Positions 19,767 to 38,202 of a DNA stretch of 50,820 bases are shown one piece after another. The notes beneath the pieces are model-generated. The model had not been told where the DNA came from. It worked only from the letters and a program-made list of their open reading frames with translations, and did no database searches. Both the position numbers and the translations under genes were made by a program. How positions within the stretch are numbered: the first letter of the stretch is position 1; each line of letters begins with the position of its first letter. This DNA is from a bacterium (lineage in GTDB: Bacteria; Bdellovibrionota_C; UBA2361; RFPC01): assembly GCA_009926305.1 (NCBI GenBank), contig RFPC01000008.1, forward strand, positions 1-50,820, given 5' to 3'.

Positions 19767-19848
19767 GCGGGAGTGGTGGAATTGGTAGACACGCTGGATT
19801 TAGGATCCAGTGCCGCGAGGTGTGAGGGTTCGACTCCCTCCTCCCGCA
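19767..19848 (+). tRNA. tRNA-Leu (anticodon TAG)
   Basis: Acceptor arms GCGGGAG and CTCCCGC, D-arm with AATTGGTAGAC, anticodon arm CTGGA-TTTAGGA-TCCAG, a class II variable arm (GCCGCGAGGTGT) and T-arm GAGGGTTCGACTCCCTC, discriminator A. The long variable arm and anticodon TAG identify leucine (CUA codon). No CCA is encoded. Confidence 0.95.
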
Positions 19849-19867
19849 TTTGCGCGACATTAATTCA

Positions 19868-20008
19868 GCCCGCAGTATTACTAATCAGCTCAGTATTACT
19901 AACCAGCTCAGTACTACTAACCAGCTCAGTACTACTAACCAGCTCACTACTTTCACAAATCAGCTCAGTGTTATTAGAGGCAAGCTATGTTATTCGAGGC
20001 AAGCTATG
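19868..20008. repeat. 18-bp tandem repeat block after tRNA-Leu
   Basis: Three near-identical copies of CAGCTCAGTACTACTAAC run head to tail from 19886 to 19939 (the first has one T for C), flanked by diverged copies at 19868 and 19940-19975. Immediately after it, TTATTAGAGGCAAGCTATG is repeated at 19-bp period (19971 and 19990) with one mismatch. No gene lies in 19849-20206. The units are in direct contact, without spacers, so this is not a CRISPR array. Confidence 0.8.
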
Positions 20009-20128
20009 TACCTGACTGGGAGCCGGTTTCTCCTTCATTTGTATTCTCTCCCTGTATTTTCTCCGTTCATCCCATGTCTCTGTTCTCATTTCTTGCTCTC
20101 TTTATTTTTCCTTTCAGACATTCTTCTT

Positions 20129-22248: not shown

Positions 22249-22812
22249 TTAACCCTGTCTTTCCGGAAGCCATCGCTCTGGGACACCTGCTGCTACCGAA
22301 TCCTCTAGGATTTCTAGTGAGATTGTTTTTGAAACAATCAATCCTTTAGCATCAATAAGGTACACTGACGGCAATTTAGAGGCCTGAAATGCAAGTGCTG
22401 CTTCGTCATCTGCACCGTTCCCTGAAAAAGCGAAGTCTACTCTTCCGCGAGGATGGACAGCTAAATATTCGCGAAGTGCCTTCTCATATTTCAGCGGATC
22501 AAGGCTTATAGCAACGAAGGCGGTATCTCTTGGTGCTTCAGTAGAGAGGGATACAAACTGCTTTAATGCTCGTCTTGATTTACTACACCACTTCGCCCAA
22601 AACAGGATGGCTATTCGTTTCCCTGCATACTCCTGCAGTCCGACATAACTACCATCAAGACGAGTAATTCGTGTTTGAGGAGACTCGATGTCGAGTGGAA
22701 CGAACTTCGAAGACTGAGAACTACATCCTACCACCGAAGCAAGGCATACAATGCATAATGAAAACAACAATGATTTTCGACCCCGATTCCTCTTTCCTAT
22801 TACTCGCTGCAT
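22249..22812 (-). CDS. Thioredoxin-like lipoprotein with a single active-site cysteine
   Basis: 187 residues. The N-terminus is a lipoprotein signal (SLLFSLCIVCLASVVGC, lipid Cys about residue 30). The rest is a TlpA/AhpC-like thioredoxin fold: GKRIAILFWAKWC at about 64-76, FVAISLDP, and a cis-Pro strand KLPSVYLID. The active site reads W75-C76-S77-K78-S79 where TlpA has WCxxC, so the second Cys is Ser. Disulfide exchange by the normal two-Cys route is not possible; a one-Cys peroxidase or mixed-disulfide role remains open. It is the last gene of the Tad/SctV block, 112 bp after the helical-repeat lipoprotein. Confidence 0.8.
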   Translation of the reverse strand: MQRVIGKRNRGRKSLLFSLCIVCLASVVGCSSQSSKFVPLDIESPQTRITRLDGSYVGLQEYAGKRIAILFWAKWCSKSRRALKQFVSLSTEAPRDTAFVAISLDPLKYEKALREYLAVHPRGRVDFAFSGNGADDEAALAFQASKLPSVYLIDAKGLIVSKTISLEILEDSVAAGVPERWLPERQG

Positions 22813-22924
22813 TGTGCAGACTCCCCTTTTGTCGGCTCCCCCAGACTAAGCATCAGTGCTCTATCGCCTTATTTACAGTGTCAACACTGTCATAGTCTGA
22901 TGGTCGAGGAAAGAGAGCAAAACC

Positions 22925-24439
22925 CTAGAGTTCATCAAATATATGTTGGGAGCCGTTATTCGGAAACTCTGGAAAGACAGCTTCATACTCGCCGATCACT
23001 GTCTGACTTTTCTCACCCAGATAACTATCACGAAGAATCTTCAAAGCACCTACATCACTACATCCCGCCAGTGAGCGGACACCTAATGCTCTTACAGAAT
23101 CGTTTCTATGAGAGAGGAGTGCGAGTCTTCTTCCTAGTGACATTTCCTTTTCAAAATCATCGACAAATAACGATATCAGCAAAGCATCAGACACTCGAAG
23201 TAATGCGTCGAGCAAAGTTGTTGCATTCAGTTCATCACGAATTTTCTTGAATGCTGCCTTAACTTGCTCCTCACCCACAATATCCCGATTGCCTACCACT
23301 CCAACCAACTCTTTGTATTTGTCCCTCTCCTCCCATCGATGCTTTCGAATCCACGCAAGCAAAGTCGCAAGTGGCTCAGTGCTAATGCTCTTTCCGAAGA
23401 GCATTTCATACGCTTTCGTACTGATCAGTGGATTCTTTTCACTGGCAACAATGGCAAGCAGCGCCACTTCAGCCCGTCTATCAATCCAGCGTCCAATAAC
23501 CGTCAGATCTTGGAGTTGAATTTTGCCGTAAACGCCTCGAAGTAACGATAACGATACATCTTGCTTGAGAATACTGTCATCACTCCTTAGAATTTTCAGA
23601 AATTTTCGTTGCGCTGGATTCTCTATCTGCTCACTCTGCAGCTGCTGGACGATTGTCTGAAATAGCGGGCTATGCTGATATGCCAACTGCTCCAAAACCC
23701 AAAATATTTCACTTTGCGACAGATTCGAAGAGTTGTATTGCACTTCATCATGAAACATCTTTCTTAACTGAGGATGCACGACAAGTAGTGCTAACGAAGA
23801 ATGCTCTGGGAGATCTTGGAGGGCGAGGGAGTCTCGAACAAACTCAGCAAAGAGAGGTTGAAAACTTGGTAACTGCATCAAATCAAAACCTAAGGCTCCA
23901 CTAAGGCGTAACCCGAGTAAGCTGTTCACTTTATACAGGCTACGAAGAGCTGTAAGCCGCGCTTCCTGTGGAAGCGACCGATCGAGAAGACTGAGAGACG
24001 ATTTATAGAGGGTCCGTGGATAGTCAACAGCTAATACCGGCAACCAAAGACGCATACTTTCCAGAGTCAACAAAAGTCCCTGACGGGCGGCTCGATTAAA
24101 AAGCGTATCATGTGCAGCGTTCCTCAGATCACTCTCTCCTCCTTGCACAGCAATTTCAATTAGAACCTCAAGAGCCAAAAGATCATCAGAATTTGAGAGT
24201 AATTTGACCACTTTTATCTTTTGCTCTCGCGAAATATTCAACTCCAAGAAGCGTTTGACTACGACTGCTCTTGGTTCACCTTCTTTTAAATTCATCAAGT
24301 CTTCGAGATGTCGTTGAGCTTCCCAATCCGGAAAGCTCGCTGGCGTACGCCCACTATCACAGGAAGACAACATCCCGAAAAATAACAATCCGCATGAAAG
24401 AGGTAAGAATATGTGCACCAAATTCTTTGCACAGGGCAC
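22925..24439 (-). CDS. Helical-repeat (HEAT-like) lipoprotein
   Basis: About 505 residues from a GTG at 24439, chosen because AGG precedes it and the product then begins with a compact lipoprotein signal (PCAKNLVHIFLPLSCG, then LLFFGMLSSC). An ATG at 24553, overlapping the end of the SctV-like gene, would put 38 extra residues before the signal. The mature protein is all-helical by eye with recurrent Leu/Ala patterns (for example VVKLLSNSDDLLALEVLIEIA, LLRVSDALLISLFV, SVRALGVRSLAGCSDVGAL), as in HEAT or armadillo repeats. Such proteins are usually scaffolds. Its place directly after the SctV gene suggests a periplasmic or outer-membrane partner of that apparatus, which is inference. Confidence 0.7.
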   Translation of the reverse strand: MPCAKNLVHIFLPLSCGLLFFGMLSSCDSGRTPASFPDWEAQRHLEDLMNLKEGEPRAVVVKRFLELNISREQKIKVVKLLSNSDDLLALEVLIEIAVQGGESDLRNAAHDTLFNRAARQGLLLTLESMRLWLPVLAVDYPRTLYKSSLSLLDRSLPQEARLTALRSLYKVNSLLGLRLSGALGFDLMQLPSFQPLFAEFVRDSLALQDLPEHSSLALLVVHPQLRKMFHDEVQYNSSNLSQSEIFWVLEQLAYQHSPLFQTIVQQLQSEQIENPAQRKFLKILRSDDSILKQDVSLSLLRGVYGKIQLQDLTVIGRWIDRRAEVALLAIVASEKNPLISTKAYEMLFGKSISTEPLATLLAWIRKHRWEERDKYKELVGVVGNRDIVGEEQVKAAFKKIRDELNATTLLDALLRVSDALLISLFVDDFEKEMSLGRRLALLSHRNDSVRALGVRSLAGCSDVGALKILRDSYLGEKSQTVIGEYEAVFPEFPNNGSQHIFDEL

Positions 24440-24524
24440 TACATTACCTGGAAACAAGGAAAGACATCCCGAGACCAGCCCTGCATCACGCTGATCCTGT
24501 CTTCCTGATACTCCTTGGAGGGTT

Positions 24525-26627
24525 TCAGGAGTCACTACCGATACTCCACTCATGAAATACTACGCGAGGACACTCTAGTGAAATCTCATCATCACAGAGC
24601 ATAGGCACCGTGAATGCAAGTGAGTGAAGAAAATGAAAAACGGGGACACGCAGGAAACTTGGACACTGAATAGCAATCGGAAGAACTCCTCTCATTCTGG
24701 CCGTCTGTAAGATATTCTCTAAGGTCTCCCGCAGATTCCGGTAGTCAGAGCGACTCATTTGCAGACTTCCCCCTAGGAGTTGTCCACCAGCACTTAGAAA
24801 AAGAGACTCTACTCCTGGGGTTATTCTGATAATACGCATTGGAGCACGGCCTTTCTTCTGAAAGCCCATGAGTCTTTCGCGGTGACGATGGCGCAAGAAG
24901 ACGACCAGTTCAACCATATTAAATTGTTCATCAACCTCACTTGCTGAATTTGCGGAGGAATAGAATGTAGAAACATCCTCTACCAACCGCTGCAAGTGAA
25001 GGATTGGTAAGCCCTCGCGGAGCAATTGATGAATAACACTTAACAATCTGCTGACAGAAATTCCGTAATCTTCCAAAGCCTCGGATACAAGCCCTGGCTG
25101 AGCATTCTCAAGATCTTTGAGCTCGGCATGCAGCCAGCGCATGGTTATCACTTCTTCAGGATTACGGCGACAAAATTCAAAAAGCTGTAGTGCCATGAAT
25201 TCGAGAGGATTAAATGATCTGACTTCAAGCGCATCAACCATGCGTTGCACGCCTGGAGTATGGACACGGATCCAGGAACCGGCCCCACCGAACAATGGTG
25301 TCACTTCCTCCTTTAATACGACGAATCCAAGTGCTTTCGCATGAATAGGGTGTATTGCTACAAATTGTCCCTTTTCTGGTATCGCATGATGAATAAGAAC
25401 CTGCTGTCCACGTCGCAACTCGTATTCGCCGCCCCGCAAGCTTTTATCGAGCTCTATTCGTGGAGCTGGCAGATGCGCACCAAAGTAAAAGTATGATTCT
25501 TGGGACATACTTTTCCATGCTTGTGTTGTCAGGCTATCAATACGTTGAGAGCCTACTGCTCCTATCTCTGATGAAACCGAGAGTACAAACGTATCATGTA
25601 AAGGAAGTTGTAGGACGCTCCCCTCTTCCCCGATAAGAGTACCGTCGACACTGGTACCTTCGCGACTCAAGCTCAAGTCTCGCATCTTCCGCATGGCGAA
25701 CCACGAGACAAGCGAAAGCGTACCCACGATGACAAATGGCTGCCATGGCATTCCATCGATTGCCGACAAACCAAAAAGTAATACACTCACCACTATTAAG
25801 ACGATTGGCTGCCTAAAGAGTTGATGCCGTAGCTCTGTCCCGATCGTACTTTCAGAACTTGTTCCAATGCGCGTCACGACGAGGCCTGCAGAAATGGCAA
25901 TGAGGAATGCTGGAATCTGGCTTACGAGACCATCTCCTACTGTGAGCGTGGTATACACTGACACCGCATTCTCAAGCCCCATCCCATGATAGAGGCCAAG
26001 GGATAAGCCACCAACCACATTGGTAAAGATGATGACTACCCCGGCAATCGCATCGCCCTGAACAAATTTCATCGCTCCATCCATAGCGCCATAGAGCTGA
26101 GACTCTTTGCGAAGCTGCTCCCTTCTGCGTTCCGCCTCTTGAGGTGAAATAAGTCCTGCTCGAAGATCTGCATCGATCGACATCTGCTTTCCAGGAAGTG
26201 AATCGAGTGCAAATCGCGCCGCGACTTCAGAAATACGACTGGCGCCCTTTGCAATTACCATAAGATTGATAACGGTGATAATGGCAAATACCACGACTCC
26301 AACGAGCAGCTCTCCTCCGACAAGAAACGTCCCGAAAGATTCAATAACCTGCCCCGCATCGCCTTGACTTAAAATCAGTCGTGTTGAAGCTACATTCAAC
26401 CCTAAACGAAAAAGTGTCGTTAGCAATAAAATAGTTGGAAATGCAAGAAGCTGGACTGCATTTGGCAGATACAAGACAACGAGGAGAAGAAAGAAAGCTG
26501 AGGCAAGATTAAGCGCAAGGAGAATATCAAGTACCGCCGTCGGCAAGGGTACCAACAATAGGCATGCTATCGCTGCAACAAAAAGCGATACAAACAATTC
26601 ACTGATTCTTGGCCAACCCTTCGTCAT
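24525..26627 (-). CDS. Type III secretion export gate protein, SctV/FlhA family
   Basis: 700 residues, full length for the family. Residues 1-330 hold about eight membrane helices and the family signature: RLGLNVASTRLILSQGDAGQVIESFGTFLVGG, then GASRISEVAARFALDSLPGKQMSIDADLRAGLI and YGAMDGAMKFVQGDAIAG. The AMDGAMKFV form is closer to injectisome SctV (LcrD, InvA) than to flagellar FlhA, which usually reads AMDGASKFV. The C-terminal cytoplasmic part (about 345-700) is intact. SctV forms the nonameric export gate under the basal body. No other type III gene (SctN, R, S, T, U, J) is in the window; its neighbours are TadC upstream and a lipoprotein downstream. The family call is firm, the context is unusual. 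Confidence 0.92.
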   Translation of the reverse strand: MTKGWPRISELFVSLFVAAIACLLLVPLPTAVLDILLALNLASAFFLLLVVLYLPNAVQLLAFPTILLLTTLFRLGLNVASTRLILSQGDAGQVIESFGTFLVGGELLVGVVVFAIITVINLMVIAKGASRISEVAARFALDSLPGKQMSIDADLRAGLISPQEAERRREQLRKESQLYGAMDGAMKFVQGDAIAGVVIIFTNVVGGLSLGLYHGMGLENAVSVYTTLTVGDGLVSQIPAFLIAISAGLVVTRIGTSSESTIGTELRHQLFRQPIVLIVVSVLLFGLSAIDGMPWQPFVIVGTLSLVSWFAMRKMRDLSLSREGTSVDGTLIGEEGSVLQLPLHDTFVLSVSSEIGAVGSQRIDSLTTQAWKSMSQESYFYFGAHLPAPRIELDKSLRGGEYELRRGQQVLIHHAIPEKGQFVAIHPIHAKALGFVVLKEEVTPLFGGAGSWIRVHTPGVQRMVDALEVRSFNPLEFMALQLFEFCRRNPEEVITMRWLHAELKDLENAQPGLVSEALEDYGISVSRLLSVIHQLLREGLPILHLQRLVEDVSTFYSSANSASEVDEQFNMVELVVFLRHRHRERLMGFQKKGRAPMRIIRITPGVESLFLSAGGQLLGGSLQMSRSDYRNLRETLENILQTARMRGVLPIAIQCPSFLRVPVFHFLHSLAFTVPMLCDDEISLECPRVVFHEWSIGSDS

Positions 26628-26696
26628 TTCATTCCTATCGTAAACTTCTCTTCCCTCTAGAGAACCATATCCCTACCTGTCTTTTCCGTCTCCACC

Positions 26697-27602
26697 TCAA
26701 CCAAAGCCATCTCGAATCTGTATGCCGAATCCAATCAATAAAATGGCTAAAAATCCGAGGAAAACAAGCGCTACAGGTCCAGTTGCAGCCAATTCAAGCT
26801 TCTTAATCTTCGCCTCGATTTGCATTGCTCTCTGATTCGCGACTGCATCAGCCAACTCATTTAACTGCCGAGTAATTTCTCCTCCGTGCTTTGCTACTTG
26901 CGCAAGTGCTAAAAAAGCATGTTTTAGCTCCGTCTGTCCCGTTCGGACTCCAATCTCCGTCAAAGCCTCTTCCAGTGATACTCCAGACTTCACTTGAAAC
27001 TGCACCATTCGCAACAGTTCTGTTACGACATTATGACTATCACGTTCATCTGCCATCTGGACAACACGAGCTATGCATGGACCAACATCAAGTGAACTAC
27101 TCACCCCAATAGCAATTTGTTCGATAACGAGTGGTAGATAAAAAATGATCTCTTCATATCTTGATTCAGTGCGACGCTCAAGAATACTCACAGGGATCTG
27201 AAGTCCAATTAAGACACCAAGCACTAAACTGACGAGTGGAAACATGCCTGTGCCATAAAGAAATCCGGCGATAGTACCGAGAATCGCACCTGCAAGAGGA
27301 GCAAAAAATCTGAGTCGATGAAAAGAGTTCTTCAATTTGACGTCAAGAATTCCTGCTCGAAAGAGTTTCTCCTCCACCGTCAGCGCTTGTTTCTTTGAAG
27401 CCGCCTGCTTTGTTTGCTCCTTGATAAGCTCAAAATCTGACTGGGTAAGACGTTGCGAGATCTGCGAATCTTCTCCATCACGCGCCATCAGAGTCCGAAA
27501 CGCATCTTTCTTTCGTGCTCCGAAAGTCATGTACAGAACCATCCCGAGCGCACTAAAAGCGAGCATCCCAATCAGTATTCCTGTAACGAGCAATGTATCC
27601 AT
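26697..27602 (-). CDS. tadC: TadC-like type II secretion F-domain membrane protein
   Basis: 301 residues from the ATG at 27602 (MDTLLVTGILIG), 17 bases after the tadB stop; longer readings would overlap tadB. The order is N-terminal membrane helix, polar region, a helix pair (FFAPLAGAILGTIAGFLYG, FPLVSLVLGVLIGL), the T2SF domain (residues about 160-280: FYLPLVIEQIAIGVSSSLDVGPCI, SGVSLEEALTEIGVRTG, AKHGGEITRQLNELAD) and a final membrane helix ending IRDGFG. TadB and TadC form the inner-membrane platform on which CpaF acts to assemble Flp pili. Gene order and the pairing with the preceding gene make TadC the better label. Confidence 0.85.
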   Translation of the reverse strand: MDTLLVTGILIGMLAFSALGMVLYMTFGARKKDAFRTLMARDGEDSQISQRLTQSDFELIKEQTKQAASKKQALTVEEKLFRAGILDVKLKNSFHRLRFFAPLAGAILGTIAGFLYGTGMFPLVSLVLGVLIGLQIPVSILERRTESRYEEIIFYLPLVIEQIAIGVSSSLDVGPCIARVVQMADERDSHNVVTELLRMVQFQVKSGVSLEEALTEIGVRTGQTELKHAFLALAQVAKHGGEITRQLNELADAVANQRAMQIEAKIKKLELAATGPVALVFLGFLAILLIGFGIQIRDGFG

Positions 27603-27619
27603 TCTTCTCTCAATTCTTC

Positions 27620-28585
27620 CTAAACTTTCATCTTCGTTACCTGAGATATCCAAAAGATCCCCAGCCCGATCAGTATTCCACCTACCTGCCACACCAACCA
27701 TCCAAACGGGTCGTTCATTGCCCCCATTATTGATTCTGGATAGATAAAGTAGAGATAGACCTGAAGTGCGCCCAAGATAGCGATAATAAACCAGATTGAT
27801 CCACGCTGCATTCCAACAGCAGCCTGAGCAGAGAGACGAAAATATTGGCGCTTTCGAACCTGCTTCGCGAGACGGTCGAGAGTATTTGAAAGTGCTCCCC
27901 CCCCTACCCGTTGCGCGAGAAGAAGCGCTTGGACGAATAGCTCAATCTCAGGATGAAAAATATCTTCGCCAAATGCTCCTATAGATTTCTCTTCAGGCAC
28001 ACCATACCTAACCCGAAGCATCATCGTTTCAACTTCTTTTCTTACAAGAGATCCACGATCCAGACCCTTTGCTGCCGACTCTAGCGCTTGAAGAGGGTTC
28101 ATCCCCGTTTTCAACAGCCCCACAAGGGAAAGAAGCATTTGTGGGTAATCGGCATCAAAGGCTTTAAAGCGTCGAGAGACACCTAAATTCAGCGCCCAAC
28201 GCATCACCAATGGACCAGTCAACAAAGAAAAGAACTGTATGAGTAAATGAAAATATTGACTGACTATTCCCAAGGCAATCAGACTTAGAAACAGTTCAGC
28301 ACCTCTAAAGAGTAGAGGAGACAGATTCCACTGAGCATACTTCAGTTTTTTTTCAAGGGTGAGTACCGAACTCGAGCGCTTTTTTTGAGGAGCTTTATAG
28401 GCATACTCTAGTGCTCCTTCTCCCTGACGACGACTGTCAGCCCGCTTTGATGCTTGACTCCCCAAATTCCGCATTTGCGATGAAATAACAGCTGAACGGC
28501 TTCGCGATACAAAAAAAACAAGCAGGACTCCCATGAGGGCCACACTGAGCCCAATCAGAAGTACGATAAGGATAGATTGATTCAT
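27620..28585 (-). CDS. tadB: TadB-like inner-membrane platform protein
   Basis: 321 residues. An N-terminal membrane helix (ILIVLLIGLSVALMGVLLVFFV) and a basic linker are followed by two membrane segments near residues 95-140, then the T2SF domain (about 150-270: YPQMLLSLVGLLKTGMNPLQALESAAKG, VPEEKSIGAFGEDIFHPEIELFVQALLLAQRVGGG) and two C-terminal helices. This is the usual TadB topology for Flp/Tad pilus assembly. It lies 29 bases after cpaF and 17 before tadC, so the three are one transcript. Confidence 0.87.
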   Translation of the reverse strand: MNQSILIVLLIGLSVALMGVLLVFFVSRSRSAVISSQMRNLGSQASKRADSRRQGEGALEYAYKAPQKKRSSSVLTLEKKLKYAQWNLSPLLFRGAELFLSLIALGIVSQYFHLLIQFFSLLTGPLVMRWALNLGVSRRFKAFDADYPQMLLSLVGLLKTGMNPLQALESAAKGLDRGSLVRKEVETMMLRVRYGVPEEKSIGAFGEDIFHPEIELFVQALLLAQRVGGGALSNTLDRLAKQVRKRQYFRLSAQAAVGMQRGSIWFIIAILGALQVYLYFIYPESIMGAMNDPFGWLVWQVGGILIGLGIFWISQVTKMKV

Positions 28586-28614
28586 ATCGACTCCTCAAAT
28601 GAGGCTACTCATCG

Positions 28615-30156
28615 TTAAAAATTACTTCGATCTCCCAATACAAGCTCTTCTGGAGAATCACCTAGGTAGATGCCATCAGCTGCCAAGATCTCATCGTAGT
28701 TACTCGACCAAGAATCGACCCGCCACACTGGGTTTCTCCCAGTCTCTATGAGGGTAAACATAGGCTTCACCTGTATCACTCCCTCCACATAGTGTCCTAC
28801 CTCAATAATCTCACCGATCCTCGGCTTGCCAGTTCCCTTCTCTCGGAAAAGCCAGACAACACACTCAATGGCCAGCGCTATTTGTTGTCGAATAATTTCA
28901 ACAGAGACAGATTTCTGAGCTCGACCCAGTAAACTTTCAAGACGAACAAGCGTCTCACGTGCGTTCCTTGCATGGATAGTTGACATCCCAACGTGTCCTG
29001 TCTGAGCACTCTCAAGGAATGCTTCGGCAGCATACGGCGTCCGCATCTCACCAAGAATAACCCGTGTTGGCGTCATTCTAAGGGTTGTCTTGATATGCTC
29101 TTGCAGACTCACCTCTCCAATTCCTTCAACGTTCGCGGTACGAGATACCAGAGAACGGAAATAGGGATGTTGAAAGTTTAATTCGGGGGTATCCTCAACA
29201 GAGATAATTGACTCATCTGGCCCAAACTGACTCGCCAAACACTTAATAAGCGTTGTCTTACCAGTTCCAGTCTCTCCAGCAATCATCATTGTTACGAGAC
29301 CACTACGAGTGAGACTGGCGAGATAGTTTACAATCAGTGGTGGGGCCACTTCATAACTGATCAGACCATCAAGAGACACATCACGCACCCTTGGAATCCG
29401 AATAGCCAGGAGAGGTCCACGACTTCCACAGACGCTCTCATGAACGGCACAAATTCGAATTCCATTCGCCAATGACGCATCGATTGTATGTTGTTGGGTT
29501 GAAAGCGACTTTCCGAGTCGAAGAAGTAGCCGGTCAATAAAAGCAACATATGCTTGATGGTTAGGAAACTGTAATCCTGTTGCTTCACTGACCTTCCCGC
29601 GCTGCAACACGACTGTACGCCAGTCATAAACGTGAATATCAGTCACTTCTTTATTATCGATGAGCGGCTGCAATACCCCCCACCCCATGATATCTTTTTG
29701 GAGGTGAATGATAACGTTGGCACGCTCAATATCATCGAGAGTTTCCGAACGTGTGCGTAGAACCTTATCAACTGCGGAGACAATTGAGGCCTCGTCCACA
29801 TGCTCAAGACCATCTTCGCTCTGCGCTTGATTACCAAATTCACTTCCGATCTCACGTCGAGCCTCTCGAAGAACGGTAGTCGCAAGAACTGACAACTCCC
29901 CCTGCCCACTGCCACGTCTCGGAGTGCTTCGATGAGACGGTTCCTCATGTCGACTGGTGGCTCTACTCGTACTGGATCTGCTATCGGCTATCTGTGCACT
30001 GCGTCTAGAAAAAGAAACCTCTTGTGTCTCGCGCTGATTGTGATCGCTCTCAGCTCCGCGGTGAGGTGAAGCCCCAGTTCCCGCTACTGTATTTTGACGG
30101 GTGGTACGCGTTGAAAAGAGACCAAGAATTGAGTCTTCATCACGATCTTTACTCAT
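28615..30156 (-). CDS. cpaF: CpaF/TadA family pilus assembly ATPase
   Basis: 513 residues. The N-terminal 120 residues are Ser/Arg-rich and disordered. The GspE-type ATPase core has DIHVYDWRTVVLQRGKV, TIDASLANGIRI, Walker A GETGTGKTTLIK, the RVILGEMRTPYAAEAF Walker B region and the His box GHVGMSTIHARNARETLVRLE. It powers Flp pilus assembly and possibly retraction. The next gene upstream, cpaB, is 232 bp away, and that gap holds a 16-bp triple repeat but no clear promoter. Confidence 0.93.
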   Translation of the reverse strand: MSKDRDEDSILGLFSTRTTRQNTVAGTGASPHRGAESDHNQRETQEVSFSRRSAQIADSRSSTSRATSRHEEPSHRSTPRRGSGQGELSVLATTVLREARREIGSEFGNQAQSEDGLEHVDEASIVSAVDKVLRTRSETLDDIERANVIIHLQKDIMGWGVLQPLIDNKEVTDIHVYDWRTVVLQRGKVSEATGLQFPNHQAYVAFIDRLLLRLGKSLSTQQHTIDASLANGIRICAVHESVCGSRGPLLAIRIPRVRDVSLDGLISYEVAPPLIVNYLASLTRSGLVTMMIAGETGTGKTTLIKCLASQFGPDESIISVEDTPELNFQHPYFRSLVSRTANVEGIGEVSLQEHIKTTLRMTPTRVILGEMRTPYAAEAFLESAQTGHVGMSTIHARNARETLVRLESLLGRAQKSVSVEIIRQQIALAIECVVWLFREKGTGKPRIGEIIEVGHYVEGVIQVKPMFTLIETGRNPVWRVDSWSSNYDEILAADGIYLGDSPEELVLGDRSNF

Positions 30157-30282
30157 TTTCTTCCAAACCCCTTTAGAAACCCTTCATTATACACTACAAG
30201 CACTACGCCTGCTCAGCGAAAATACGACGCATTTCCCCTATTCCTTTAGATTACGGGATGTCTGATTCGGGTGCAAAATCTG

Positions 30283-30325
30283 GAAACGGCGTTAAAACAA
30301 AACAGCGTTAACCCAAAACGTCGTT
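30283..30325. repeat. 16-bp triple repeat between cpaF and cpaB
   Basis: Three copies with the core AAAC-N-GCGTT or AAACGTCGTT recur at exactly 16-bp period in the 232-bp gap. The rest of the gap, 30157-30388, contains no gene that I can support. Confidence 0.6.
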
Positions 30326-30388
30326 CAATGGTCACCGCGCAGCAAGCAAAAGCTCACTATTCAAGGGGTATCTGGTAATTTCTGATGG

Positions 30389-31270
30389 TTATTCTAGGGA
30401 GTCCGCAGGAAGGAGCTGACCGTTAACAAGGTAGAATTTCTTCCCGTCAACGATAACGGCACCCTCATTCTTTACTTTCTCTCTGGTAACCGGTCGTCCG
30501 AGCAAATCTGGAATGGTCACCTCTCCACGACCCTGAGTTGCCTGAGAATCGGCATCACCCCGAAGAGAGAGACTGAGAGAACCTGAGGTAGAGGCAAGCT
30601 GTATCTTCTTCGCATCCTCTGCTGTCACCAATAGGGTTACGGTATTAGGCACAACACCCGCCTTGACATCTTGATTCGTTGTCTGGCTATCGGCAGAAAG
30701 CACCTCAGCGTTTTCTACAATCGGAATAATGGCTGGAGAACCATTTACCCGAGTCGACCAATTCACATCCACCCGCGCTCCTGGCCGAGCGAAACCACCA
30801 ACGCTGGTTAATGAATCTGTACGGATCGTTACTGCTCGAAACCCCTCAGGTATCTTAGCAGTCAGCACGTTCGCTGGTCGGATCGTAGTGATATATTCCT
30901 TATGAAGAGGCTGACCGGGAACAATCAGCGAGCGGGCATAGCTCCCTTGAATCTCATCGAACCCCCGAACAGCTCTCTCAGACACCCCTACCTGCGGCCG
31001 AGATTCTGAGCGGAACATCCTTGGCTCAAGAGCACTTCCGGCTTGAACCTCTTGGATGGGAACCAGCACCTCAACCATCTTCATCGGCGCCACCGGCTCC
31101 ACGACTGCAACGGGCTGGTTAGAGGCGACAGGAGCCCCTTTCTTTCCAGACTGTATGAGGAGAAAGGCCACACCTCCCGAAATGATAAACAGCACCAATC
31201 CTACGAGTATAAGGACCTGAGGACCGCTTCCCCCACGGGATGGTTGTGTTCTTCCAAATTGACGAGCCAT
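30389..31270 (-). CDS. cpaB: CpaB/RcpC Flp pilus assembly protein
   Basis: 293 residues. An N-terminal membrane anchor (VLILVGLVLFIISGGVAFLLI) is followed by an SAF-type domain (residues about 65-130: EVLVPIQEVQAGSALEPRMFR, SYARSLIVPGQPLHKEYI) and the CpaB core (AKIPEGFRAVTIRTD, GFARPGARVDVNWST, VTLLVTAEDAKKIQLASTSGSLSLSLRG). CpaB is a periplasmic protein thought to stabilise the Tad secretin. No secretin gene (cpaC/rcpA) follows, so it must be elsewhere. The flp gene lies 165 bp upstream. Confidence 0.9.
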   Translation of the reverse strand: MARQFGRTQPSRGGSGPQVLILVGLVLFIISGGVAFLLIQSGKKGAPVASNQPVAVVEPVAPMKMVEVLVPIQEVQAGSALEPRMFRSESRPQVGVSERAVRGFDEIQGSYARSLIVPGQPLHKEYITTIRPANVLTAKIPEGFRAVTIRTDSLTSVGGFARPGARVDVNWSTRVNGSPAIIPIVENAEVLSADSQTTNQDVKAGVVPNTVTLLVTAEDAKKIQLASTSGSLSLSLRGDADSQATQGRGEVTIPDLLGRPVTREKVKNEGAVIVDGKKFYLVNGQLLPADSLE

Positions 31271-31317
31271 TTCAATGCTTTTCTCAAATAATGGTAAGGC
31301 TCACGAAGGTGCGAGCC

Positions 31318-31358
31318 AAAAAAGAGTCCGAGCTCGGCAACGTACCTGTATGCCGAGC
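31318..31358 (-). terminator. Hairpin with T-run between flp and cpaB
   Basis: On the minus strand GCTCGGCA and TGCCGAGC form an 8-bp stem with an 11-base loop, followed eight bases later by a run of six or more T. It lies about 80 bases after the pilin stop. A second perfect hairpin, ACCGACA-C-TGTCGGT, lies closer to flp (around 31395-31410). Together they may act as a partial terminator that lets pilin mRNA exceed that of the assembly genes. Confidence 0.55.
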
Positions 31359-31435
31359 CCTTCTTGATTTAGGCCAGTCCTCGCCTCCATTCACCGACAG
31401 TGTCGGTTTTAGCAGACGAGGCAAAAGCAACCGAC

Positions 31436-31594
31436 CTATGACCCCGCTATTTGACTACCAACAACACTAAATCTTTCGCTCACTTCATTACCGAGAAAAG
31501 TGAGTGCCCCGATAGCAACAACGGCGACAAGAGCCACCAAAAGAGCGTACTCAACAAGGCTTGCCCCAGCTTCTTTTTTAACAATTGCTTTCAT
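31436..31594 (-). CDS. flp: Flp-type (type IVb) major pilin
   Basis: 52 residues, found by translating the gap between cpaB and tadZ by eye. The product reads MKAIVKKEAG followed by ASLVEYALLVALVAVVAIGA and a short tail ending QIAGS. The prepilin peptidase site is G10, the Glu-5 and Tyr-6 of the mature chain form the EY motif of Flp pilins, and the hydrophobic stretch is right for a type IVb pilin. AGGAG stands before the ATG. It is the structural subunit of the Tad pilus encoded around it. The length fits family Flp pilins (about 50-75 residues). Confidence 0.93.
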   Translation of the reverse strand: MKAIVKKEAGASLVEYALLVALVAVVAIGALTFLGNEVSERFSVVGSQIAGS

Positions 31595-31768
31595 CTCTTT
31601 CTCCTAACATAGCGAACAAGAACAACTCTTAACTTCGCAGATTAAAATTCACAACGCTTCACGCCCGAGCGAGCGAAACTCTCAACCTTTGGTCAAAAGC
31701 TTCTATGGCATGCCGGGGCTTCACGAAAAACAGCCACAATACATCCCAAACCACCGCATGAAACCCCC

Positions 31769-33097
31769 TTATTCTCCCACATCTGTGGGGTCGGCAAAAG
31801 ATGGGAATCCCTGCTCATTGGTACGGCGCTTCAAGACTCTACTCAACCAACTGCCACTGCCTGCCCCGTCAGATGATTGCGACCTCCTATCAGCTCCATA
31901 TCCCCCTGTTCCACGCCCTCCAGAGGCTCCAGCTCCTGACTCTATTATCCCTATCTCTCTTGCTACCTCCTCAAGGGCCTCTCTCGTTGCCTTCTGTCCC
32001 TTGCTGTACAGCGTTCTGCCACTTCCAGGCCAGATCGCAGCTTTTGGATCATTCGGAATTGGTGGCAACCGCCACGGAAGCTCACCCAGACCATGAACTG
32101 GCTCTAACTCTGCTTTAATCTGAGGCAATCCCAGTAAGTCTCCAGAATATGGATTAACGAGAAAAACAATCCGGTCAGTGCTCCCGACCAAAGCCTTGAC
32201 GAAAGTGAGATATAAATCAACAGCCGTGAGCCCTAAGATAGTATCATCTATCACGATCAAAACGACATCAGCGGCACGAAGAAGCCCCCCTGTGGCAGGC
32301 CCCATTCTTCCCCCGGTATCCACGATCACAACATCGTTCATAAGCCGCGCGCGATCGACAATCCTCTGAACGAGACCCATTCCATCCGTATGACAAACCA
32401 GGTCCATCGATTCCGCCATTCTGTCAGGCGGCATCAACACCGACACATCTTCACTAATTGGTATTGATGCTTCTTTCATCGACTCTCGGGTGATCTCTTG
32501 GCTGCCGTTGACCCAAGAACTGACTATCTTTGCTTCAGCTCCATTCACGGTTAACGAACGACTTAAATCTCTCGTTTCTACATCGAGATCCCAAAGAAGG
32601 GTTCGTTTCCCGTAAACACTACACACCTCACCGAGAGCAGCAGCTATAGAAGTTGCACCTACCCCACCCTTGGCATGAGTAACAGCAACCACCCGACCTT
32701 CTCGAGCTCGACCTTCCTTCTTAAAATCAGCATTGATTGCCACGAGCTCTTGCAAGAGGTCTAAAGGTCCAGCACTGTCTGGAAAAACTTTGCGAACTCC
32801 AATCGAATGCGCGGCGCGAAACGCCCCACCACCGTACGTGCTATCTGAAACAAAAAGAATAATCTGAATCCATGGAGCAGCAGCTTTTGCTTGTCGAGCC
32901 ACCACTGTTGCCTGCTCTCCAAGCCCAGCTCCTAGCACAACAACGTCGGCTTCGGATACTCGCTCTAAAAAATCGCGATCACTGACAAGCTTTACTTTGA
33001 GGTCGAGCATTTCGATGTCACTCTTCGTAAAGAGCTCTATGCGCTTGGCACAAAATGCCTGTGCCTCTGTGGTGACATCAACGATAAGCAACTTCAT
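31769..33097 (-). CDS. TadZ/CpaE-like pilus localisation ATPase
   Basis: 442 residues. Residues 1-125 form a receiver-like domain (MKLLIVDVT, ADVVVLGAGLGE), followed by a ParA/MinD-like ATPase domain (about 135-380). The deviant Walker A reads AKGGVGATSIAAALG, with Ala where most ParA proteins have Lys, as is common in CpaE. TLLWDLDVETRDLSRSL and VVIVDTGGRMGPAT are the other nucleotide-binding strands. The C-terminal 60 residues are Gly/Ser-rich with a basic end. CpaE/TadZ places the pilus machine at a pole. The gene is next to flp and after the kinase gene in the same direction. Confidence 0.88.
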   Translation of the reverse strand: MKLLIVDVTTEAQAFCAKRIELFTKSDIEMLDLKVKLVSDRDFLERVSEADVVVLGAGLGEQATVVARQAKAAAPWIQIILFVSDSTYGGGAFRAAHSIGVRKVFPDSAGPLDLLQELVAINADFKKEGRAREGRVVAVTHAKGGVGATSIAAALGEVCSVYGKRTLLWDLDVETRDLSRSLTVNGAEAKIVSSWVNGSQEITRESMKEASIPISEDVSVLMPPDRMAESMDLVCHTDGMGLVQRIVDRARLMNDVVIVDTGGRMGPATGGLLRAADVVLIVIDDTILGLTAVDLYLTFVKALVGSTDRIVFLVNPYSGDLLGLPQIKAELEPVHGLGELPWRLPPIPNDPKAAIWPGSGRTLYSKGQKATREALEEVAREIGIIESGAGASGGRGTGGYGADRRSQSSDGAGSGSWLSRVLKRRTNEQGFPSFADPTDVGE

Positions 33098-33215
33098 TCG
33101 AAAAAACCTATTAAAATAAGCAATGTAAATAAGATGCTACTATAGCTGTAACGTCTCGACAATTTAGGATTAAGCCTCTCCCCATCTCACGAATAATTGC
33201 CCTACACGACAATGA

Positions 33216-34601
33216 TTATGGGGAAAAACTCATAAAAAGCGCATCTAGAGGCAAAAAAGAGCCACATTGCGATGGATAAACGAGACCACAAACCACAAGC
33301 CCTGTCAGAGCCAAGGAGAGAAGTATAAATAAAACAATAGTTAAAAATGTCTTCGCGTTAAAACGGATACGCTCCAAACCAGTTCGGGGTCTGTTATTAG
33401 CTCTGGAGTGAAAAACTGGCTCCGACTCCCCAAAATCACCAAATCCAGAGGGAGCGGAAGACCCCCTCCACAGGGTACTGCTCCTTCCGCGCTCTGCTCC
33501 TTTCTGCTGCCCAGAGACGGGCAGCATGGCAGCAATATCGGTACCCTCTGCCATTGAGGTCCTACGCTCAAGACCAGACTCATGCTGATCAATCGGTAAA
33601 ATATCTCTCACCTTAACCCGGGAGGAGTGCGTTCCCCCGGATGAAGCTCTTTTTCCCTTACGAGGCTTTTCTGCCAAGAGCGCCCTCTTCGGGGACCCCT
33701 CTCTGAGGCTTCCTTCGTTAGCCTCAGAGTACCGAACGCTGTCTCGTGAGAGTTGTTGTTGAAGCGCTAACAAGTCATGAAGCATGGCTTCGGAAGATTG
33801 GTAGCGTTCCTCTATCGCTCGAGCCATAGCCTTGAGAATGATTCTCTCTAACTCTGGCGGACACTCCGTTCGTATAGCACTTGGCATTCTTGGCTCAGTC
33901 TTTAATCGCTTCATCATTGTTGCATAGACACTTTCACCCCTGAATGGCTGCTCTTGAGTCACCATTTCGTAACCGAGAATGCCAAGTGCATAAATGTCTG
34001 AACGCCAATCGACGTGCGAGTTGAGCATATACTCAGGACTCACGTAGTCAATTGTGCCGACCACTCCACCGTGCTCGGTTAACTTCTGGCCACTGCCCGT
34101 ACGAGCTATTCCAAAATCAGCTATCTTGGCTCTCCCAAGTTCCGTAAGGAGAATATTTTCTGGCTTCATGTCACGGTGAACAATCCCCGCATCGTGAATT
34201 GCTTGAAGTCCAGCACACATGTCTATTAGTAGACCTACAATTTCTCTGATCGGAATCGGCGTAGGATCCTCTCCAAGTTTATCTGCAAGGTCCCCCCCAC
34301 CGACGTACTCCAGCGTATATCCTGTTATCTCTCCATCACGTATATAGTCGAACGCACGGACCACATTTTCATGAATTACACCGTAAGAGGCAAAAATCTC
34401 ATTTCGAAACCGTCTTAGTGCCACCCGATCTTGCGCAACTTCTGGAAATAAGACCTTCATTGCAACAAGTTGATCGTCTTCCTCTTTGTCGGTACAGGCA
34501 TAGACCACCCCCATACTGCCCGTGCCGAGGCGGCGAGTGACTTTGTATCGAGATGCGATAATTGTTCCGGAACGGATATGAATCAGTTTTGCTTGGTTCA
34601 T
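33216..34601 (-). CDS. Membrane-anchored Ser/Thr protein kinase
   Basis: 461 residues. The Hanks-type kinase domain (about 14-280) has the glycine loop GTGSMGVVYACTD, the lysine in VAMKVL, the catalytic loop HRDMKPENILL, DFGIA and SPEYMLNSHVDWRSDIYALG. A Ser/Arg-rich juxtamembrane stretch of about 120 residues precedes a C-terminal helix (TFLTIVLFILLSLALTGLVVCGLVY). Only about 20 residues lie beyond the helix, so there is no large external sensor domain. It sits between the FHA gene (27 bases upstream) and tadZ, with a PP2C phosphatase two genes upstream; this makes a phosphorylation module probably aimed at the Tad/SctV machine. Confidence 0.93.
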   Translation of the reverse strand: MNQAKLIHIRSGTIIASRYKVTRRLGTGSMGVVYACTDKEEDDQLVAMKVLFPEVAQDRVALRRFRNEIFASYGVIHENVVRAFDYIRDGEITGYTLEYVGGGDLADKLGEDPTPIPIREIVGLLIDMCAGLQAIHDAGIVHRDMKPENILLTELGRAKIADFGIARTGSGQKLTEHGGVVGTIDYVSPEYMLNSHVDWRSDIYALGILGYEMVTQEQPFRGESVYATMMKRLKTEPRMPSAIRTECPPELERIILKAMARAIEERYQSSEAMLHDLLALQQQLSRDSVRYSEANEGSLREGSPKRALLAEKPRKGKRASSGGTHSSRVKVRDILPIDQHESGLERRTSMAEGTDIAAMLPVSGQQKGAERGRSSTLWRGSSAPSGFGDFGESEPVFHSRANNRPRTGLERIRFNAKTFLTIVLFILLSLALTGLVVCGLVYPSQCGSFLPLDALFMSFSP

Positions 34602-34628
34602 ATACTTAGTTCAGAATACCATTACTCC

Positions 34629-35465
34629 CTACAGGGCGTGACCCCGCGAAATGAGACAAACGGAAAACTGCTTCTTGCCGAAGAAAATAGTATCACCATG
34701 ACGCACGGTGCTCTTGTCCCCAGATAGCGACTCCTCTTCGCCAGTATCTCCTCGGATAATTCGGGTTCCATGTTCTGAAAGTTGATCAAGAACCTGTAAT
34801 TCTCCAAAATCAGCAATGCGAACAATGGCATGCATCGGACTCACGCTCTCATCATCAAGTACGAGAAAATTTCCAGAAGCGGGTGGTTCAGAGGTAATGA
34901 TTAAGCGCCCCTGTCTCAGCTCAAAAAACTCGCCGTTTTCCTCCTCATCATAAGAGACCAGAAACCCCATGATTCTCGACTGTTTACTCCAGATAATACC
35001 TTGCCGAATCCGATAGGCAGCTGGAGGAGTCACGGGTTGAACCGGAGTGGCAATCCTTGCGGCAGATGGTGTTCTCTCCCTCTTTCCACCTGCGTTACTA
35101 CTCTTCGTTCTTTCAGAGGGTGCAACTCCTTCATCTTCGCTCAGAGGCTCCTGATAGTGTGTAAACTGAGGCTTTGGCGGTTTTCGCTCCTCACGTGGAG
35201 TTGAAGAAGAGCTTTCTCGGAGTGTTCTATTCGTTTCATAACTCTCTGTTGCCACTCCTGCTGGAGCCTGGAATGCATCCGGATCCTCAACTGGATCTTG
35301 AGTCGTGTCGGCTGCACCCATATCCTTCGCCAGTCGAGCTCGAACTTCATTCGTAATATCTGGCGTCAACATGACGGTACGATTTCTCGCTCTCGAACCC
35401 TTGCCGCTCTCCGCTGCGTCCTCTTCTTTGACTCGTTCGTTCTTTCGATCTTTTTTTGAAGTCAT
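34629..35465 (-). CDS. FHA-domain protein
   Basis: 278 residues from the ATG at 35465, preceded by GGGAGAAGGG. Residues 1-160 are polar and disordered, rich in Lys, Glu, Ser and Thr, with many possible phosphosites. The C-terminal third is an FHA-like domain: ASGNFLVLDDESVSPMHAIVRI and LDQLSEHGTRIIRG, ending HGDTIFFGKKQFSVCLI. The expected SxxH is SPMH and the NGT is HGT, so the phosphothreonine pocket is slightly divergent. FHA domains bind phosphothreonine peptides, so this protein probably reads marks made by the kinase 27 bases downstream. Confidence 0.82.
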   Translation of the reverse strand: MTSKKDRKNERVKEEDAAESGKGSRARNRTVMLTPDITNEVRARLAKDMGAADTTQDPVEDPDAFQAPAGVATESYETNRTLRESSSSTPREERKPPKPQFTHYQEPLSEDEGVAPSERTKSSNAGGKRERTPSAARIATPVQPVTPPAAYRIRQGIIWSKQSRIMGFLVSYDEEENGEFFELRQGRLIITSEPPASGNFLVLDDESVSPMHAIVRIADFGELQVLDQLSEHGTRIIRGDTGEEESLSGDKSTVRHGDTIFFGKKQFSVCLISRGHAL

Positions 35466-35475
35466 TCCCTTCTCC

Positions 35476-35658
35476 CTAAAATCTGATTTGCAAAGCAATG
35501 GCCATTCCCGCTGTCAGTACAGCAATAAGAGACAGAATACCCATTATGATTGTTGTCTGAAAAAGCGCCGCGCCATCAACCTTTCGTCGAGGCTGTGATG
35601 CACTACGTAACTGTCTGACTGGAGTATCCAAAAGGCTGCTCTGAAGATAGCTCGCCAT
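35476..35658 (-). CDS. Possible small single-pass membrane protein
   Basis: An ATG at 35658 opens a 60-residue frame that overlaps the last 56 bases of the PP2C gene and stops 10 bases before the FHA start. The product has a basic N-terminal half (SASQPRRKVDG) and one clear membrane helix (TTIIMGILSLIAVLTAGMAIALQ). It fills the PP2C-FHA gap exactly, which supports a real gene, but there is no obvious ribosome site and part of the frame is a shadow of PP2C. Confidence 0.4.
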   Translation of the reverse strand: MASYLQSSLLDTPVRQLRSASQPRRKVDGAALFQTTIIMGILSLIAVLTAGMAIALQIRF

Positions 35659-36415
35659 GTAGCGGGATGATAATAGCGGTAATATTGTCATATCCACCTC
35701 GCTCCTTTGCGAGTGTAACAAGACGGTCGCAAGCATCCGATGGAGAACAAGAGCTAATAATTGAAGCGATCTCTCCTTCCTCAACGAGGCTATAAAGCCC
35801 ATCGGAACAGAGGAGCAAGATATCTCCCAGGCTACTATCACTTTTCGATGTACTCGGATTAATCCAGTACTGGATGAGATCAATGTCTAATCCAGGATTT
35901 GCACCGAGACATCTTGTGAGAATATGCGCTTTTGGATGGGACAGCGCTTCGTTCTCATCGATCTCGCCTTTCTCAACAAGCTCCTGTACATAAGTATGGT
36001 CTACTGTGAGTTGCTGAATTGCTCCATCCCGAACAAGATAGGCACGTGAATCACCCACATTTGCAATGACAACCTCTGCGCCAAATACCTGAACGGCCGT
36101 GGCGGTCGTGCCCATTTGCGCAAATGATTGATTTTGTCTTCGAAGCACTACCCGACGATTTGCTTCTTCTAGAGCACTCTTGATCGATACCATCGGAGAA
36201 CGCGCCGGCTGATTCTGAAGCTCGCGACGAATTGCATCTATTGCAAGTTGAGCAGCGAGATCGCCTCCTGTCTGTCCTCCCATTCCATCGCAGACAAGCC
36301 ACGTTATTCCAGACGGCGACTCGATCGAAGCAAACCGATCTTCATTGAGTGTTCGTTCACACCCAACATCAGAAATAGCGGCTGGTTCTAGGTATGATTC
36401 GTGGTCACTTTGCAT
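35603..36415 (-). CDS. PP2C-type Ser/Thr phosphatase (PrpC/Stp-like)
   Basis: 270 residues. The metal-binding motifs of bacterial PP2C are all present: TLNEDRF at about residue 22, LVCDGMGGQTGGDLAA at about 41, ANVGDSRAYLVRDG, LLLCSDGLYSLV, and GGYDNITAIIIPL at the end. It removes phosphate from Ser/Thr residues and normally pairs with a Hanks-type kinase. Here that kinase lies two genes downstream on the same strand. It is soluble, with no membrane segment. Its gene is the first of the long minus-strand Tad/SctV block. Confidence 0.93.
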   Translation of the reverse strand: MQSDHESYLEPAAISDVGCERTLNEDRFASIESPSGITWLVCDGMGGQTGGDLAAQLAIDAIRRELQNQPARSPMVSIKSALEEANRRVVLRRQNQSFAQMGTTATAVQVFGAEVVIANVGDSRAYLVRDGAIQQLTVDHTYVQELVEKGEIDENEALSHPKAHILTRCLGANPGLDIDLIQYWINPSTSKSDSSLGDILLLCSDGLYSLVEEGEIASIISSCSPSDACDRLVTLAKERGGYDNITAIIIPLHGELSSEQPFGYSSQTVT

Positions 36416-37136: not shown

Positions 37137-37721
37137 ATGGTAAAGCTTTCAAAACTCTATACTCGAGCCGGGGACGCTGGCGAGACAGGGCTCGTTGGAG
37201 GTAAGCGAGTGGTGAAAGCAAGTCCTCAGGTGCATGCGTATGGTGATATTGATGAGCTCAATAGTTGGATCGGCATGATCAGAACGCAACTGAGAGGGCA
37301 AAGTGCCATAGATGCTGATACCGCCCTCCACGAAATTCAACAAGAGCTCTTTGACATTGGCGCTGAGTTAGCGACTCCACATGAGTCTGAATGGAAGCCT
37401 CCTACCATCATCACAGAGTCAGAGGTAGCAGCTCTCGAAAAACAGATTGATGTATGGACTGCCTCGGTTCCAGAACTGAAGTCTTTTCTCCTTCCAGGGG
37501 GCTCTCAACTCATGAGCACCATTCACATTACGAGAACGGTATGTAGACGTGCGGAACGCTCTATCGTTGGCTACTCGCAAGAAGAGTCAGTAAGACCTAT
37601 TATTCTCATCTATCTGAATCGCCTCAGTGACTGGCTTTTTGCATTTGCCCGTCATTGTTCTGAGATTACAGGTGAGGCTGAACATTTATGGGATTCTACT
37701 CGGTCTGTGCCAGAAGAATGA
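37137..37721 (+). CDS. Cob(I)alamin adenosyltransferase, PduO type
   Basis: 194 residues. Features of PduO/MMAB-type transferases: N-terminal KLYTRAGDAGETGLVGGKRV, GDIDELNSWIG, the helix LHEIQQELFDIGAELATP, FLLPGGSQLMSTIHITRTVCRRAER and the C-terminal YLNRLSDWLFAFAR. It adds the adenosyl group of ATP to cob(I)alamin, making coenzyme B12. That is the cofactor needed by the acyl-CoA mutase encoded at 47399-49610. GGAAGGA precedes the ATG. It is convergent with the DUF2231 gene. Confidence 0.95.
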   Translation: MVKLSKLYTRAGDAGETGLVGGKRVVKASPQVHAYGDIDELNSWIGMIRTQLRGQSAIDADTALHEIQQELFDIGAELATPHESEWKPPTIITESEVAALEKQIDVWTASVPELKSFLLPGGSQLMSTIHITRTVCRRAERSIVGYSQEESVRPIILIYLNRLSDWLFAFARHCSEITGEAEHLWDSTRSVPEE

Positions 37722-37732
37722 GTGCCACTCTT

Positions 37733-38194
37733 TTAAATATTTTCAGGTGGAATCAAAAGAGTATTCATCCCGTATTCATGAACAAGACTACCACCCGTAG
37801 CACCCGTAAAGATTGATAACAGGCATAAAAACAGAGACATCAGGAGTGCGAGCGCAGCGAAAGTCTTTTCATGCCGCACAGCAATTATTCCCACAAAAAT
37901 AGCTCCTCCAGTTACTAGAGAGGCCAAAAGAAGAACTCGTCCCCAAAAATAATGCCACTCTAATGCCTCCTTGGCTGTCGGATGAACATCCTCGATTATC
38001 CCATCGGTAGTCCATGAACCTGAATAGAATGCCCATGCGGCTAACCCGATCTGTAATATCACAAGTGCTAACAATTCATTCTTTACACTGGATAAGTTCT
38101 CTAATCGGAACAGGCAGACGAGAAATAGTACAAACGGAAAAATAAGAGGTCCATGGATGACGAAAGGATGAAAAAAGTGGGGTGGGACTTCCAT
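37733..38194 (-). CDS. DUF2231-type small membrane protein
   Basis: 153 residues with four membrane helices. The family signs are the N-terminal FFHPFVIHGPLIFPFVLFL and the paired His residues in later helices (ALEWHYFWGRVLLLASLVTGG). Members of this family have been suggested to bind haem through these His residues. A final helix (ALALLMSLFLCLLSIFTGATGG) ends the protein. It is nine bases downstream of the SpoIIE-type phosphatase gene on the same strand, so they may be co-transcribed. Confidence 0.75.
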   Translation of the reverse strand: MEVPPHFFHPFVIHGPLIFPFVLFLVCLFRLENLSSVKNELLALVILQIGLAAWAFYSGSWTTDGIIEDVHPTAKEALEWHYFWGRVLLLASLVTGGAIFVGIIAVRHEKTFAALALLMSLFLCLLSIFTGATGGSLVHEYGMNTLLIPPENI

Positions 38195-38202
38195 TTTATA
38201 CC

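Follow-up and report, generated by a model that had tools for sequence, protein, structure and literature searches.

Why does a gene for a type III export gate lie directly behind tadC in a Tad pilus locus? The question is raised by a block of genes at positions 22249 to 36415 of contig RFPC01000008.1 (assembly GCA_009926305.1), from a bacterium of the GTDB lineage Bdellovibrionota_C; UBA2361; RFPC01. The whole stretch that was analysed, 50,820 nucleotides long, is called the window here. An earlier reading made from its letters alone (the sequence-only reading) took the gate protein, SctV, for a lone type III protein that serves, or is co-regulated with, the Tad apparatus and saw in the combination a candidate for an undescribed system. 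We examined the block within its own genome (a 2.99-Mb assembly, 96% complete, in which the window is contig C8 and C3, C5, C13, and C107 are other contigs) and across a comparison set of 46 genomes of the phylum, all from one class. From the gene content and linkage described below, we consider it likely that the Tad pilus and a needleless type III export apparatus form one functional system.

SctV and one type of Tad locus

All 12 genes of the block lie co-directionally on the minus strand, with intergenic gaps of -82 to 232 bp, in the order PP2C, FHA, Ser/Thr kinase, TadZ, Flp, CpaB, CpaF, TadB, TadC, SctV, HEAT protein, and thioredoxin-like lipoprotein. Pfam and NCBIfam confirmed the genes that the sequence-only reading had named; it had counted thirteen frames where we count 12. 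The Tad core stands together in the block and comprises the TadZ/CpaE localisation ATPase (31769..33097; PF13614, E = 1.4e-12), with 55 to 77% identity across the window's order; the Flp major pilin (31436..31594; PF04964, E = 8.2e-9); CpaB/RcpC (30389..31270; TIGR03177, 149 bits, above the cut-off); the CpaF/TadA motor ATPase (28615..30156; PF00437, E = 1.3e-29, with a top NCBIfam match to the TadA family that was under its cut-off); and the platform proteins TadB (27620..28585; PF00482, E = 1.1e-10) and TadC (26697..27701; PF00482, E = 6.5e-13). The real start of TadC is probably near 27602, where its orthologs, about 309 amino acids long, begin.

SctV itself (24525..26627) is full-length, as had been claimed, and matches PF00771 (E = 9.5e-158) over profile positions 3 to 653 of 657. 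Its ortholog profile matches solved SctV/FlhA rings over their full length (best match, 7alw at 604 bits), and the protein retains a complete cytosolic domain and the conserved membrane motifs. That SctV might be a degraded relic was ruled out by its full length and good conservation.

The sequence-only reading had suggested looking for conserved tadC-sctV adjacency in related genomes, and this is what we found. SctV directly follows tadC, at a spacing of 11 to 491 bp, in 40 of the 46 genomes, spanning at least 18 families, and chance adjacency is thereby ruled out. In the remainder, one locus runs into a contig edge, three genomes (66 to 89% complete) have no scoring tadC of this type, and family f14 has the two genes apart. 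Within the window's order, about 20 genomes preserve the whole gene order of the block, with SctV identities of 37 to 62%, and the kinase, phosphatase, and FHA genes are constant members of the Tad-SctV locus; relatives, too, have the PP2C gene upstream of the FHA gene. Close relatives of TadZ in named records come from uncultured genomes only, labelled Deltaproteobacteria, Bdellovibrionales, Oligoflexia, or unclassified.

No sctV stands next to ten of the tadC copies: one at a contig edge, two in f14, and seven that are paralogous (in G007, G008, G023, G027, and G044). We inspected two loci of this second type (L091 and L092), which read CpaF-TadB-TadC-TadZ-CpaB-TadE-TadG-like or CpaF-TadC-TadZ-CpaB-TadE-TadG-like; both lacked SctV, and no secretin gene was seen nearby. 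Since the paralogous tadC copies within the same genomes have no SctV beside them, SctV goes with this type of Tad locus rather than with every Tad locus. In a maximum-likelihood tree, the Tad-linked SctV proteins of the order and class fall apart from FlhA and from the C107-type SctV with support of 100/97; the tree is unrooted and several of its rows have long branches, and it thus supports one origin without proving it.

The second half: a needleless type III set

SctV is the only type III gene in the window, which also has neither a secretin nor a prepilin peptidase gene, as the sequence-only reading had stated. Genome-wide, however, its description of SctV as lone was wrong, as partner genes lie on C5 and probably on C3. 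This genome has three FHIPEP genes, namely, the flagellar FlhA (C3), the block SctV (C8), and another SctV (C107), and FliP/SctR is likewise present three times (C3, C13, and C5). The C5 locus encodes two FHA proteins, a double-FHA one in the membrane and one with a zinc ribbon, followed by SctJ, a small protein, SctQ, SctR, and SctS. It also has a TPR protein and membrane proteins that are T- and U-like. An SctV gene is absent from both the C5 and the C13 export loci. Among the second-half proteins, matches were obtained for SctJ (PF01514, E = 1e-10) and for FHA/YscD_cpl (E = 5e-12); SctO was identified by Pfam, SctQ matched FliMN_C at half a bit under the cut-off (E = 6e-5), and the C5 SctR and SctS were assigned by profile (SctS at E = 1e-5).

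In G037, a relative outside the window's order, these genes continue the Tad operon as TadB-TadC-SctV-pseudokinase/HEAT-double-FHA-zinc-ribbon-FHA-SctJ-small protein-SctO-SctQ-SctR. The contiguous Tad-SctV-type III arrangement occurs, whole or in part, in families f16, f17, f18, f20, f21, and f22, and at two such loci (L124 and L125) SctS, SctT, and SctU come next, completing the export gate R, S, T, U, and V in these relatives. The SctD-like double-FHA gene is single-copy in 44 of the 46 genomes. In 12 genomes outside the order it shares a contig with SctV, at a distance of about 10 kb or less; inside the order it is found apart from SctV. Because sister lineages hold Tad-SctV contiguous with C5-type genes, the natural reading is that the window's order broke up what had been one operon and that SctV remained with the Tad half. 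The conserved adjacency thus bears out a tie between SctV and the Tad genes, although SctV reads as the gate of a needleless set and not as a lone recruit. For the sequence-only reading, a type III cluster elsewhere would have refuted the tie only in combination with a lack of conserved adjacency; the partner cluster does exist, but the adjacency is conserved.

The SctU of the C5-type set is short (213 to 247 amino acids). Its matches end near profile position 220 to 240 of 335, so that the protein ends ahead of the C-terminal auto-cleavage domain; such a tail-less SctU would suit a machine without a needle-to-effector switch. Directly after SctJ stands a conserved gene for a protein of 70 to 86 amino acids with no Pfam match (L105:11704-11961 and L121:10080-10307), perhaps a small type III component that has escaped recognition.

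No type III ATPase gene was found in the Tad-SctV operon. An SctL-SctN pair is conserved next to a MurJ-like gene at a third locus (C3) and probably feeds the C5-type set, an assignment that is indirect. The SctL-SctN/MurJ-like arrangement was recorded at L144, L145, L146, L148, and L152, including a genome without flagellar FlhA. The two PF00263 matches in this genome are GspD (by gspE/F/G) and PilQ (by pilM/N/O), with no third secretin, whether a dedicated Tad secretin (CpaC/RcpA) or a type III SctC. Thus, a genome-wide search of the kind that the sequence-only reading had proposed returned SctJ, SctR, and SctS on C5 and SctL/SctN on C3 but no secretin for this system. A dedicated prepilin peptidase (TadV/CpaA) was absent as well, each genome having one A24 peptidase away from the Tad locus. 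For the needle (SctF) and translocon, the loci that we read held no Pfam-recognised candidate, their small unnamed genes not having been checked exhaustively; secretin and needle matches were absent at the search sensitivity used.

TadE-type minor pilins were present in every genome tested, at loci away from the Tad block. This genome has four clusters with TadE matches, and relatives have up to 30 such matches, a figure seen in one of them. In a typical cluster, TadE is accompanied by another prepilin-like protein and by a large one of 600 to 1,500 amino acids; the clusters probably encode interchangeable pilus ends. Scattered clusters of this kind were recorded at L157 to L160 and L161 to L168, some with FG-GAP repeats, and at L161 two Ser/Thr kinases stand beside one.

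A proposed single machine, its counterparts, and the alternatives

In the machine that we propose, CpaF, TadB, TadC, and TadZ would build and position the Flp pilus, whose ends would probably be provided by the TadE-type clusters from other loci. At the same inner-membrane site, SctV would assemble with SctR, SctS, SctT, the tail-less SctU, SctJ, and the SctD-like double-FHA protein, while SctQ, SctO, and probably SctL/SctN would feed this gate, and proteins would be exported to the periplasm. With no needle or dedicated secretin found, outward passage could be via the pilus or through some other pore in the outer membrane. Assembly would be timed by the kinase, phosphatase, and FHA proteins through reversible Thr phosphorylation. 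We infer physical coupling, protein export, and phosphorylation control from the gene content, and a contact-dependent attack on neighbouring cells, up to prey killing, as the likely use by analogy with Myxococcus. A more specific form, in which a single hybrid nanomachine operates phylum-wide with the SctV ring and the export gate seated on the Tad platform in the inner membrane and the pilus replacing the needle, again with no dedicated secretin, is a tentative proposal that we regard as doubtful.

The nearest counterpart is found in Myxococcus xanthus, where a Tad-like apparatus, Kil, and a needleless type III secretion system (T3SS), T3SS*, form where the cell touches its prey; T3SS* is recruited by Kil, and both are needed for lysis (PMC12075869, PMC8460266). 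Four Tip complexes act there, and their action requires T3SS* (PMC12075869). The combination in the window is therefore a variation on a system already known and not a wholly undescribed one, for which the sequence-only reading had seen a candidate. Both pairs share the Tad core of CpaB, CpaF, TadB, TadC, and Flp and are rich in FHA proteins, both have a partner type III apparatus, which lacks needle, translocon, and secretin there and has no recognised one here, and the four TadE-type clusters here parallel the four Tips there. In contrast, the M. xanthus Kil and T3SS* genes lie in separate clusters, whereas here the Tad and type III genes make up a single operon across much of the phylum, with SctV right behind tadC. 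The short Kil secretin KilC and the FHA-fused CpaF (KilF) were not found here, and the present locus adds obligate PP2C and Ser/Thr kinase genes, a pseudokinase-HEAT protein, and an SctU without its C-terminal domain.

Other systems are more distant. The 'Myxo' nonflagellar T3SS (Abby and Rocha 2012) resembles the present set: it has a type III core without secretin and needle (PMC3459982) and occurs in deltaproteobacteria-like lineages. Its locus includes SctN, however, and is not described as having Tad genes, whereas here the operon begins with the Tad genes and SctN lies at another locus. Canonical Tad/Flp loci (Caulobacter cpa, Aggregatibacter tad) share Flp, CpaB, TadZ/CpaE, CpaF, TadB, and TadC; unlike them, this locus has no secretin CpaC/RcpA, dedicated prepilin peptidase, or TadD, and it has type III genes added. 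The chlamydial T3SS resembles the set described here in its FHA-type SctD and scattered loci. Its CdsD carries an FHA domain, and kinases and PP2C are encoded in the genome, but it has a secretin and a needle and no Tad pilus. We take 7alw, the best SctV match, to be a further likeness to the chlamydial system.

A review restricts the Kil-T3SS* pairing to the Cystobacterineae (PMC10849154), and our literature search for SctV linked to Tad returned nothing beyond the Myxococcus work. That a Tad locus and a needleless T3SS share an operon across a large part of a phylum is strong genetic evidence for one machine. The operon points to a probable interface between TadC/TadB on one side and SctV and the double-FHA SctD-like protein on the other, and also to a phosphorylation switch. 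These lineages would widen the group of suspected contact-killing bacteria.

Several points weigh against joining the two halves in one system. The evidence is entirely genomic. In the window's order, the Tad and type III halves are on different contigs, and family f14 keeps both halves yet has tadC and sctV apart. SctT and SctU of this genome were assigned by position only, the SctN/SctL pair next to MurJ may belong to a different type III set, and the single prepilin peptidase of each genome is common to other pili. The likeness to Kil/T3SS* is one of gene content, and killing by these bacteria is inferred.

One alternative is co-regulation only, in which the Tad pilus and the needleless T3SS are separate machines used at the same life stage, their genes staying linked because both are under one kinase-phosphatase-FHA module. 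General signalling genes are indeed part of the operon, the second half is physically apart in the window's order, and a Tad-TadE locus without SctV occurs alone, so Tad can function without SctV. However, the gene that stayed right behind tadC in the split order is a core subunit of the export gate and not a regulator, and the Myxococcus Tad brings its T3SS* to the contact site (PMC12075869); we consider co-regulation alone unlikely. Far less probable still is a strict form of the sequence-only reading, that SctV was recruited by itself, as a proton-driven ring for Tad assembly without SctRSTU. No other sct gene lies beside SctV in the window or across the order, but SctJ-O-Q-R-S-T-U share its operon in sister lineages, its SctD-like partner is kept as a single copy nearly throughout, and the protein retains its cytosolic domain and membrane motifs. 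Least probable is that the block SctV serves the second nonflagellar set, on C13. That locus has no SctV gene of its own, but the C107-type SctV fits the C13 set (G007 is without both, and G013 and G009 have both and no Tad-SctV match), and the operons of sister lineages, which hold orthologs of the C5 set and not of the C13 set, rule it out. The one functional system of Tad pilus and needleless export apparatus is the reading that we retain.

The C13 set has features of its own. It reads SctR-SctS-SctT-SctU(N)-hybrid histidine kinase-SctU(C)-FHA membrane protein (L104, G000:C13, 4176-14365), with SctU split in two genes around a large GAF/PAS histidine kinase, and the split is repeated in relatives (L109, L111, and L118).

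Signalling genes, lipoproteins, and neighbouring features

The block opens with the PP2C Ser/Thr phosphatase (35603..36415; PF00481, E = 9.8e-19). The FHA-domain protein that follows (34629..35498) has a disordered N-terminal part and matched PF00498 at 0.8 bits under the cut-off (E = 0.001). Its C-terminal domain is predicted with confidence to have an FHA fold (AlphaFold pLDDT of about 87 to 97), and its best Foldseek matches are FHA domains, Chlamydia CT664 among them; of the FHA signature, Arg, Ser, and His are kept and Asn is substituted. The Ser/Thr kinase (33216..34601; PF00069, E = 6.9e-47) ends in a C-terminal transmembrane helix. Its VAMK, HRDMKPEN, and DFG motifs are all intact, by which it looks active.

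Behind SctV lies a HEAT-repeat lipoprotein-like protein (22925..24553). In relatives, this protein has about 820 amino acids and the order pseudokinase-transmembrane helix-HEAT, and the kinase-like domain is without the ATP-binding lysine, the catalytic-loop asparagine, and the DFG motif. The N-terminal kinase-like part is missing from the protein of the window species. A frameshift was rejected as the explanation, since the start of the gene falls within the SctV stop region and no space is left for a kinase part; it is more likely that the pseudokinase part was truly lost. A structure search with the HEAT protein returned generic alpha-solenoids only. The last gene encodes a thioredoxin/redoxin-like lipoprotein (22249..22812; PF13905, E = 9.7e-9), whose active site (WAKWCSKS) has a single Cys, as is also the case in several relatives.

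Upstream of the block, at window positions 37137 to 39372, come genes for a SpoIIE-type phosphatase and a cobalamin adenosyltransferase along with one for a small membrane protein, and this neighbourhood recurs in several relatives (L065, L068, L072, and L078). Elsewhere in the window, a class I aminotransferase (9678-11618; also L116:4761-6458) carries a C-terminal extension that by eye resembles a Mur-ligase ATP-binding domain, Pfam finding the aminotransferase only. One protein (5385-7175) contains two tandem GTP cyclohydrolase II (RibA) stretches. At 19767 to 20009, a tRNA-Leu gene is followed directly by an array of 4.4 copies of an 18-bp tandem repeat.

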